Of a stretch of 64,000 bases of DNA, positions 39,695 to 44,292 are shown in pieces. Positions within the stretch are counted from its first letter, which is position 1, and each line of letters begins with the position of its first letter. The stretch lies in assembly GCA_025055765.1 (NCBI GenBank), contig JANWWS010000004.1:124001-188000 (forward strand). Direction: 5' to 3'. This DNA comes from Leptospiraceae bacterium (lineage in GTDB: Bacteria; Spirochaetota; Leptospiria; Turneriellales; Turneriellaceae). The position numbers were made by a program, and so were the translations under genes. The notes beneath the pieces are model-generated. The model did not search any database. It saw nothing but the letters and a program-made list of their open reading frames with translations, and was not told the origin of the DNA.

Positions 39695-40717
39695 TCACTT
39701 TAACCTCTCTAAGGCCCTTTTTCGATTTTGGGCTCTTGGCAAATATATTTGAGCTTCGCTGTTTTCAGGATCAATTAACAAGACCTTTTCCATGAAGGAA
39801 ATACATTGTTCAAAATCTGATCTTTCATAAGCGGCTATGCCCTGGGCAAGCAGGGAGCTAACCTGAGAGTTTAGACTTTCGCGCAGGCTCCTTAATTCCT
39901 GAACAGCCTCCGGGATATCGGGAGCTTGTTTTAAAAGCACAATGGCACGAAAGTGTCGGCCTGCTTCTAAATGGGCCTTGGCCTCCTGCCTTTTTCTTTG
40001 CTGGAATATAAGCGAACGGTATTTATCGATTAACACATCGTCTGGTGATTTTTGCTCTAATTCTTCAATTTTGCGTAATGACTCCTCGTACTCCCCCCTT
40101 TCATAATGGACAATAATGGCAGACTGCAAATCACCCATGGGATCTCTTGCTGTCTTCGTTAGGGGTGGAAGCCCCAATCTAATAGTTATACCCAAAGAAA
40201 TTGTCAGTTCCTCAAACAAAAGAGGGTCCCCTATAAAAAAGCCATTATGACCTATTCCCATTTCAAGCAATAGCTCCCTATACAAGGGGTAGCGTATCGA
40301 AATTCCTGTAACCAAGAGAGGATTCACAAAAGAAAGGCGCTTGTTTCGCTGAGCCATATAGTAAGAGCCATAGAAAGCCCCAAGACCAAACCGTGGATGG
40401 AGCACAAACTCGTAGGGTAAAAATACATCATACCCTAGGCTCACAAAGAACTGATAGAGATTTAAAACACTGGACGGGTGCCTGTCCATGGAATTGTGGC
40501 TGAGGCTCAACCCAACCGATGGTATGAGGCCCAGGGGCTGAAGAAAGGAAAAGTAAGGTTTTTTCTCTAATTCGCGTAGCCACACCTCACCACCTAGACC
40601 CCCCTCGAAGTGCTCTGCCAGAGCTCCTAGGGGAAAGCCATAGCGTGGTGCCAGGTAAATTTGTGTTTCTGCAAAAAGTGTGGAGTATATTGTTGTAAAT
40701 AAGAAAATTTTTTTCAC
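39695..40717 (-). CDS. outer-membrane-like barrel plus TPR protein
   Basis: 340 residues from a GTG that has AAGGA 5 nt upstream. A signal peptide (KKIFLFTTIYSTLFA) is followed by about 170 residues of alternating beta-strand character with aromatic girdles (IYLAPRYGFPLGAL, GLIPSVGLSLSHNS, RFGLGAFYGSYY), suggesting a small barrel. Residues about 190-340 form TPR-like helices (IIVHYERGEYEESLRKIEEL, GIAAYERSDFEQCISFMEKVL). The layout suggests an outer-membrane protein with a periplasmic protein-binding arm. Family unknown. The upstream sequence is the decayed sulfur region. Confidence 0.6.
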   Translation of the reverse strand: MKKIFLFTTIYSTLFAETQIYLAPRYGFPLGALAEHFEGGLGGEVWLRELEKKPYFSFLQPLGLIPSVGLSLSHNSMDRHPSSVLNLYQFFVSLGYDVFLPYEFVLHPRFGLGAFYGSYYMAQRNKRLSFVNPLLVTGISIRYPLYRELLLEMGIGHNGFFIGDPLLFEELTISLGITIRLGLPPLTKTARDPMGDLQSAIIVHYERGEYEESLRKIEELEQKSPDDVLIDKYRSLIFQQRKRQEAKAHLEAGRHFRAIVLLKQAPDIPEAVQELRSLRESLNSQVSSLLAQGIAAYERSDFEQCISFMEKVLLIDPENSEAQIYLPRAQNRKRALERLK

Positions 40718-40809
40718 ACCCATCCTTGGAGCAAGGCGCAAATATGGAGATCCCCATCGTTGTCACTTCCATTTTGCTCGTCAGCAAAGCCAGCTAGGCC
40801 AACTAGTAG

Positions 40810-41242
40810 TTACGAGGTAACACAATCTGGCCCCTTGCGCCAGCTATAAAATTCAGCTACGGTTATGATAGCATCCTCTTCACGAATAAAGTTATCTAGG
40901 GTCACTTTAAAAATGTCCAGCGTAGCCTCAGAAGCATAAAGATGACACCCCGAATCATGAATTAATTCTAAGACCTCATCTACAGGAGGGATATCTAGGA
41001 CTTTATTGCTTTTTTCATCCGCCAAGTCAGGCGAGCTCACATACCCGCAAATCCCCCAATCCATGTTGGGATAGGTATACCAGGGCTAGTGACGCTCGCA
41101 ACCTTTAGATTGTGGTATTTTTTTTGAATCGCATATAAGACAAAGAAAAAATCTTGAGCCAAGGCCTTGGCCAAATTTTTATCCCTGCCCCTCGATTTTT
41201 TAAATAGCCGTCATTATCTACTTCAAGAGCCTTGCCTGCCAT
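40810..41242 (-). pseudogene. fused remnants of a TusE/DsrC-like and a DsrE-like gene
   Basis: An ATG at 41242 opens KALEVDNDGYLKN, the N-terminal motif of TusE/DsrC sulfur carriers. After a frameshift DKNLAKALAQ continues the same motif (usual DWNxExAxxLAxxEG). The frame then runs into FFFVLYAIQKKYHNLKVA and SPGIPIPTWIGGFAGM, a pattern of DsrE-family proteins. A stop interrupts it, and another frame (41064-40810) continues with LDIPPVDEVLELIHDSGCHL and IITVAEFYSWRKG, the DsrE C-terminal half. In that half the usual active-site Cys (YACK) is replaced (YASE). A deletion seems to have fused two genes. Neither can make an intact protein. Identification rests on remembered family motifs. Confidence 0.65.
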
Positions 41243-41287
41243 GGTTTTTTGTCCCATCTTTAAACCCCCGCAAAGTTTTGAGATAGC

Positions 41288-42144
41288 TTAAATCTCGTCT
41301 ATGGTAAAATGGGGGTCAATGGGCAAGCTCTTAGCTAGCAAGAGACAACAAAAGTGGCGCAAAAGAAATTTTCCCCAGTGATTGCTTCTTGTTTCCTTGA
41401 GTGGTAGAAACAACCCCAAGATCGGATGGGGATAACGTCTAGGCCAAAGCTTCACATCATACCGAGAGTCAATGGGTAATTTCCCTCCTCTGTCTCCATA
41501 AAACAGGGGATCGAAGTCTTCCTCAAGTGGTTTTTTCTCTGAGAAAAGCACCAGGTTTTTGGCTCAAGCTTTAGCCTCGAAGTGAGCTAACGATTCTGCG
41601 TTACCTGTGGAGATCTTGGTAACATCAGCAAATGCAAAAACCTCGGCGTATATTTCTTCCTGCAGCCAATGGTTATTAACCTTAACGAAACCGAGATCAT
41701 CAACCACTTCTGTGTCTTTTAAAAAATGAGGTCCCGAATGTAAAGCTAACACTACCAAAGGTGAAATTCCACCTCGCCTTCATCTAGTACGAATCCTCAT
41801 CCAAAAATCCTTTTGCTTCTTGAAAATCGAAATGGCCATCCGTAGCAATGACCAAAACTTCTTAGTTCAGAAGTTTTTTTCTCTCCAAGACCATTTCTTC
41901 AATCAATGTTCACGGCAGATCTTGAATATATTCCAGACTCGACAAAAAGGTATTTTTGCGTTCTCGCAAAAAATGCTCTTCATGAGTTTACCCGAAAAGG
42001 AAAAAAGGGCCCCGGCTGGTAGAGGTGGTAGCCCTCTTTCTCCCCAACTTGAGTGGTGTATTTTAAGCCATGTTTTTTATTTTGGCGCATTAAGTGATTA
42101 GCCAAGATGGTGCCGCCACCTCCCACGAAGATTACAATCTTGTC
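41288..42144 (-). pseudogene. decayed sulfide:quinone oxidoreductase-like gene
   Basis: Immediately after the CoA-transferase stop the minus strand reads KIVIFVGGGGTILANHL, the FAD-binding start of SQR-type flavoproteins, followed by YHLYQPGPFF, the SQR signature HLYQPG. Stops then intervene. Further pieces are ARTQKYL, VLVIATDGHFDF (usual YDYLVIATG), VVDDLGFVKVNNHWLQEEIYAEVFAFAD (usual GFIPVDxYLxTxxxxNVFAAGD) at 41758-41564 and a C-terminal FYGDRGGKLPIDSRYD piece at 41551-41288. Order and spacing match a whole SQR gene broken by several frameshifts and stops. No start codon remains. The intact gene would have oxidised sulfide and passed electrons to quinone. Confidence 0.75.
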
Positions 42145-43335
42145 CTAAATCTCTCGATTTTGGCGAAGCTCTTCCATTTCTTTATCTGAGAAACCAAGTC
42201 CCTCAAGGATCTCCTTTGTATGCTCTCCGTGACCGGGAGGAAAAAAGCGATAGCTTATAGGGGTTTCACTAAAAAAGAAGGGCGAGCCAAGAGCCGTGTA
42301 TTCCCCTAGCCGGGGGTGGGGAAGTTTCACAATCTGCCCTCTTGCCTTAAGTTGCTCATCGTGAAAAACCTCCCCCAGTTCTTTTACAGGGGAAAGGCAG
42401 ACATCACTATGGCGAAAGAGATCTTCAAGCTCTTCTAGGGTTTTTTGACGAAAATAAGCCGAGATCTCACGGCGCACATAGTCAAGATCTTCTTCCTTTT
42501 CCCAATTTTTTCCCTCCAAGATTTCTTCTTTGCCTATTTGACGCAAAAAGGTGCGGAAAAAGCGCTCTTCGAGAGCAGCAAGCATAACATAGCGACCTTC
42601 TTTTGTTTTATAAATAGCATAGTTTGGTAGTTTTCCCGAGAGAACTTCATAGCCGGGACGAGGGTTTTTTCCCGTAGCTAGATATAGTGCTGCGTAAAGG
42701 TGAATGAGATTAAAAGCAGAGTCAAGCATCGAGACATCCACAAACTGACCACGACCCGTTTTTTCCCGTGCATAGAGAGCAGCTAGAATACCCGCTAGTG
42801 CGACAAAACTAGCAGCCACATCAGCTATCTGAAAACCAGGCAAGACAGGCTCTCCATGGGGCGTTTTGTTTAGTGACAAAAGCCCGCTACGAGCTTGGAA
42901 GTTTCCATCGTGGCCAGCCATGTCTCGTAAAGGGCCACTTGCTCCATAACCCGAAATAGCACAATAGATTAATCTGGGGTATTTTTCTTTTAGATCTTCA
43001 AAGCCAAGACCAAGCTCGGCCATCGTGCCTGGCCGAAATCCCTCAAGCAAAACATCGGTTTTTTCAAGTAGTTTTAAAAAAACCCTTTTACCCCCCTCTC
43101 TTTTTAAGTTCAGAGTAATCGATTTTTTGTTGCGGTTAAGTAGCAAAAACATGGCACTTTCTTCGGCTTGGTTCTGTTTTATTTTTTCGCCCAAGTAACG
43201 CGTGCCATCGCCTAATCGGGGATTTTCAATTTTAATTACCTCAGCCCCCATGTCGGCTAGGTGTTGCGAGCAAAGGGGGCCTGGCAGAAGCATACTGAGA
43301 TCCAGAACCCGCACACCGTCTAGAGGTCCTGCCAT
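42145..43335 (-). CDS. CaiB/BaiF (class III) CoA-transferase
   Basis: 396 residues. The N-terminal GVRVLDLSMLLPGPLCSQHLADMGAEVIKIE block is the family hallmark, and the catalytic Asp is in GHDGNFQARSG. GFQIADVAA and GQFVDVSMLDS complete the pattern, which is closest to alpha-methylacyl-CoA racemase-like proteins. The enzyme moves CoA between acids or racemises 2-methylacyl-CoA, fitting the branched-chain acyl-CoA genes elsewhere in the window. It lies upstream of, and once was probably co-transcribed with, the decayed sulfur genes. The start at 43335 (MAGPLDGVRVLDL) is standard. Confidence 0.9.
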   Translation of the reverse strand: MAGPLDGVRVLDLSMLLPGPLCSQHLADMGAEVIKIENPRLGDGTRYLGEKIKQNQAEESAMFLLLNRNKKSITLNLKREGGKRVFLKLLEKTDVLLEGFRPGTMAELGLGFEDLKEKYPRLIYCAISGYGASGPLRDMAGHDGNFQARSGLLSLNKTPHGEPVLPGFQIADVAASFVALAGILAALYAREKTGRGQFVDVSMLDSAFNLIHLYAALYLATGKNPRPGYEVLSGKLPNYAIYKTKEGRYVMLAALEERFFRTFLRQIGKEEILEGKNWEKEEDLDYVRREISAYFRQKTLEELEDLFRHSDVCLSPVKELGEVFHDEQLKARGQIVKLPHPRLGEYTALGSPFFFSETPISYRFFPPGHGEHTKEILEGLGFSDKEMEELRQNREI

Positions 43336-44006: not shown

Positions 44007-44249
44007 CTAGCCTTCCTCTTCGAAAAGCGAATTAAGGCTTGCTAAAAGAGCATCCAGAGGAACACCATAGCCCCAGCAAATCTGCTCCAGGGTTTCGTAT
44101 TCGTTTATGCCGCAGTGGGAGCAGCCACCTAAGTGATAGCTAGCCAACACAAGCCCCACTTCGGGATGCATGCGCAAAGCCTCACCCACCGTCGTTTCAG
44201 GGGTAAATCGTTTTTTTTCTTGTGCTTTTTCTTGTGCGGTTTGTTCCAT
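44007..44249 (-). CDS. DUF1858 redox-disulfide domain protein
   Basis: 80 residues from the ATG at 44249. The domain has TTVGEALRMHPEVGLVLASYHLGGCSHCGIN, with a CxxC motif as in the small redox proteins (DUF1858, ScdA-N-like) found next to hybrid-cluster and Fe-S repair proteins. It probably shuttles disulfide/thiol or aids metal cluster handling. The gene has only a weak ribosome site. No obvious partner adjoins. Confidence 0.75.
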   Translation of the reverse strand: MEQTAQEKAQEKKRFTPETTVGEALRMHPEVGLVLASYHLGGCSHCGINEYETLEQICWGYGVPLDALLASLNSLFEEEG

Positions 44250-44292
44250 AACACTAACATACAACAGAGCTAACTATATTGCCAGTTTTTTG

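Follow-up and report, generated by a model that had tools for sequence, protein, structure and literature searches.

The minus strand at positions 40810-42144 of the 64,000-nucleotide stretch of DNA analysed here (the window) is almost certainly a dead sqr-tusE-dsrE operon, in which the genes for a type III sulfide:quinone oxidoreductase (SQR), a TusE/DsrC-family protein and a DsrE-like protein have decayed. The relic is an ordinary pseudogene cluster, the product of gene decay of a known kind. It records the loss of a sulfide/persulfide module, and with it the predicted capacity for oxidising or detoxifying sulfide, in a single genus of a family related to Leptospira where the module is patchily kept, and its remains are still legible. 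The relic and the genes on either side of it are as follows:

42145..43335, minus strand: CaiB-type CoA-transferase (family III), intact, upstream (PF02515, E 8e-117)
41300..42138, minus strand: type III SQR pseudogene (frameshift-aware alignment; NF049943; alignment with 13 intact relatives)
41151..41257, minus strand: N-terminus of a TusE/DsrC-family protein, 36 residues (alignment to G008; tblastn with G008 TusE, E 8e-7)
40819..41147, minus strand: DsrE-like pseudogene, C-terminal two thirds (alignments)
40810-41064, minus strand: surviving open frame, DsrE-like, 84 aa (open reading frame list)
39695..40741, minus strand: TPR-containing gene, intact, downstream of the relics (open reading frame list, Pfam)

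Frameshift-aware alignment to the intact proteins of G008, a relative from the same family, placed SQR, the TusE/DsrC N-terminus and the DsrE-like protein in this order on the minus strand, with scores of 299 for SQR (window positions 42138..41300, 41% identity), 83 for TusE (41257..41151, 19/35 residues identical) and 283 for DsrE (41147..40819, 62/108 identical). The best SQR/TusE/DsrE scores were 49/42/46 in dinucleotide shuffles (n = 100) and 52/45/45 in other segments of the window (n = 46); on the plus strand at these positions they were 32/27/47. All three observed scores are far above those of the shuffles and the other segments, thereby confirming the homology. Searches by tblastn with the open reading frames of relatives reached E values of 1e-34 (SQR), 1e-22 (DsrE) and 8e-7 (TusE N-terminus). 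A sequence-only reading had named these three families, in this order and on this strand, from motifs that are visible in a three-frame translation of the minus strand. Its coordinates were correct to within a few bases, the families, order and strand agree with the alignments and with the intact clusters of relatives, and the interruption by several stops and frameshifts that it described is borne out by the alignment to G008. In total, five in-frame stops (TAA and TGA), no fewer than five frameshifts and large deletions disrupt the module, which lies between two intact neighbours. Ordered homology to the intact genes of relatives, combined with disabling lesions, identifies the operon as a pseudogene cluster.

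The SQR relic has in-frame stops at 41990 (TAA), 41912 (TGA), 41864 (TAA) and 41566 (TGA) and frameshifts near 42009, 41792 and 41760, with a further, probable pair of frameshifts near 41506 and 41490 according to an alignment to G005. When its pieces were joined into a read-through query, X marking each stop and change of frame, the NCBIfam profile NF049943 (type III SQR) matched with E = 8.9e-33; the score of 113.7 bits falls below the cut-off of 525, as expected for a fragmentary pseudogene. The relic resembles type III SQR in the FAD region at the N-terminus and in the C-terminal third, whereas it is broken and its central part is deleted: approximately 110 residues, nearly a third of the protein, are absent between 41840 and 41784, and this gap takes in the IKCPVAP stretch, which holds the first catalytic cysteine. 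The catalytic pair of type III SQR is Cys159/Cys339 in the numbering of cable bacteria (PMC13047784). Both cysteines are invariant in 13 relatives and neither is found in the aligned frame of the relic, a CFMET-like stretch surviving only in another frame. Pfam, run on the SQR and TusE pieces individually, matched nothing, and their recognition depended on NCBIfam and on comparison with relatives; a PDB search returned a weak match for SQR alone and no match for DsrE.

The TusE relic is interrupted by one frameshift near 41185, and the remaining 69 residues of the protein are deleted, including the penultimate cysteine that is present in the intact TusE of G008. The DsrC profile (PF04358) had no match in the genome, where only the 36 N-terminal residues are recognisable by comparison with G008. 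The DsrE relic lacks residues 1-42 and starts at residue 43, has a TGA stop at 41039 and a frameshift near 41000, and carries serine in place of the invariant active-site cysteine (YAC/YGC). TusE residue 36 is thus joined to DsrE residue 43; approximately 110 codons and the intergenic bases are missing at this junction, so the earlier suggestion that the two genes had been fused by a deletion is right. Compared with the TusE/DsrC (PF04358) and DsrE2-like (PF13686, NF047629) families, the relic shares the N-terminus of the former and the C-terminal two thirds of the latter but has lost the carrier cysteine of each and has the two joined. Counting against a dead operon are the shortness of the TusE piece taken alone (35 aligned residues) and the 84-aa DsrE-like frame, which could in principle still be translated.

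That this frame (40810-41064) encodes a functional truncated protein is nevertheless very unlikely. It is open, has 45% identity to intact DsrE over 89 residues and gives a weak match to PF13686 (DrsE_2; E 0.0033, 17.8 bits versus a cut-off of 25); however, it begins inside the dsrE gene, is without more than a third of the DsrE domain and has serine where the persulfide-carrying cysteine should be. There is next to no likelihood that errors of sequencing or assembly have disguised an intact operon: although the assembly is a draft in 50 contigs, the genes next to the relic are intact, the deletions exceed 300 bases and are not a product of read errors, and neither the amino-acid identity of just 41-57% to the nearest intact copy nor the loss of invariant residues is of the sort that read errors generate. 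An equally negligible chance attaches to a recoded selenoprotein in which TGA specifies selenocysteine. The idea arises from the best-matching profile, NF049943, whose name refers to a type III SQR selenoprotein subtype; this subtype carries an HxxU motif (PMC13188914), but in all 13 aligned intact relatives the corresponding motif is HxNC, with cysteine and no stops in frame. Furthermore, the relic's TGA codons fall opposite non-cysteine positions, and TAA stops and frameshifts also occur in the SQR relic. Selenocysteine as an explanation of the stops is excluded by this alignment, since the relatives carry cysteine at that site and the relic has no stop there; the SQR of this module was a cysteine-type enzyme.

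A search of 60 related genomes with NF049943 identified 14 intact genes above the cut-off and, in the window's own genome, recovered the relic as two pieces with TGA stops. Among 31 genomes examined, DsrC and DsrE2-like genes share one distribution, occurring in nine genomes that all carry the SQR as well. The sqr-tusE-dsrE genes are intact and on one strand in G003, G008, G011, G013, G026 and G028, while G014 and G016 have them spread over separate contigs; the Pfam domains DsrC and DrsE_2 were confirmed on the proteins of G008 and G005. The clusters of G008, G003, G013 and G026 match the relic in gene content, gene order and strand, but they are intact and occupy another chromosomal site, whereas only remnants are found here. 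Among the titles listed by a literature search, none described a sqr-tusE-dsrE operon in Leptospira relatives. In G005, the cluster has tusE and dsrE fused: an open frame of 199 aa (L034:6551-7150, minus strand) adjoins an intact SQR gene and encodes a nearly complete TusE without its penultimate cysteine, followed by the C-terminal part of DsrE, with the junction near a short CTGCA stretch common to both genes. The same two neighbouring genes have been joined by deletion as in the relic; in contrast to the relic, the frame is open, nearly all of TusE is kept and the junction is different, so the deletion was an independent event. There is a slim chance that such repeated fusion in the family means that the two carriers are dispensable, or that they can be reworked into one protein that functions without the penultimate cysteine of TusE.

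Judging by the families to which its proteins belong and by studies of DsrEFH/DsrC, the most likely role of the intact cluster, putative in these bacteria, is to oxidise sulfide and to pass the persulfide on to some acceptor. Type III SQR would convert sulfide to sulfane sulfur and deliver the electrons to quinone, and the TusE/DsrC-type carrier and the DsrE-like protein would relay the persulfide on cysteines. In A. vinosum, DsrE holds sulfur on one cysteine (Cys78) and transfers it to Cys111, the penultimate cysteine of DsrC, and organisms lacking DsrAB usually have the penultimate cysteine alone (PMC3397948); the TusE sequence of G008 has the penultimate cysteine only. The operon of the relatives, comprising type III SQR, TusE and a DsrE-like protein and mostly without TusA, is predicted to be a minimal persulfide relay that can be tested. 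The window's genome (2.51 Mb, 99.4% complete) contains no DsrC, no DsrE2-like gene, no other SQR of the type III kind and no TusA. It has kept a haem-copper oxidase, indicating that a respiratory chain able to accept electrons from SQR is still there. As a separate observation, the sulfite/nitrite reductase domain PF01077, present in 24 of the 31 genomes examined, is absent from the window's genome (G000) and from G002 and G006, the two g3 genomes of its family, a possible sign that sulfur assimilation is reduced here too.

The sequence-only reading further held that the lineage once used the module and then lost it recently. The lesions establish the loss; former use in the lineage and a recent date are inferred, and vertical loss is unproven, given that the site behind CaiB is not shared and the branch of the relic is long. 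The site behind CaiB differs from the operon site in the relatives, and synteny through CaiB did not reveal an ancestral operon site. In G004, which has the most similar CaiB, the gene directly after it encodes a response regulator and no relic is found there, and members of the family without SQR yielded no relics when probed with intact SQR and DsrE. Phylogenetically, the SQR relic clusters with the same-family genomes G005, G008 and G012 (support 1.000) and the DsrE relic with G005 and G008 (0.991). Because the CaiB site is unshared with the nearest relatives and the branch is long, transfer followed by loss stands alongside ancestral use and loss; it is possible, though somewhat improbable, that the operon was gained from a relative like those of genus g6 after divergence, landed behind CaiB and decayed. 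The position of the SQR relic next to G008 (SH-like support 0.963) and within the g6 clade (1.000), rather than as the outgroup of that clade, favours such a transfer, as does the arrangement in G004. However, the SQR branch measures 1.5 substitutions per site, which makes its exact place unreliable, the DsrE tree places the relic outside G005 and G008, and the candidate donors belong to the same family as the window's lineage.

Apart from CaiB and the TPR-containing gene, a thioredoxin-reductase-like protein and MarC in the flanks are also intact. For the TPR-containing gene (39695-40741), the listed TTG start may be too early, an ATG six codons downstream, with a signal-peptide-like sequence after it, being the likelier start. 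The window also encodes, at 44007-44264, a small DUF1858-like protein with a CSHCG motif and a PF08984 match just below the cut-off, for which a possible redox or metal-binding role is predicted.
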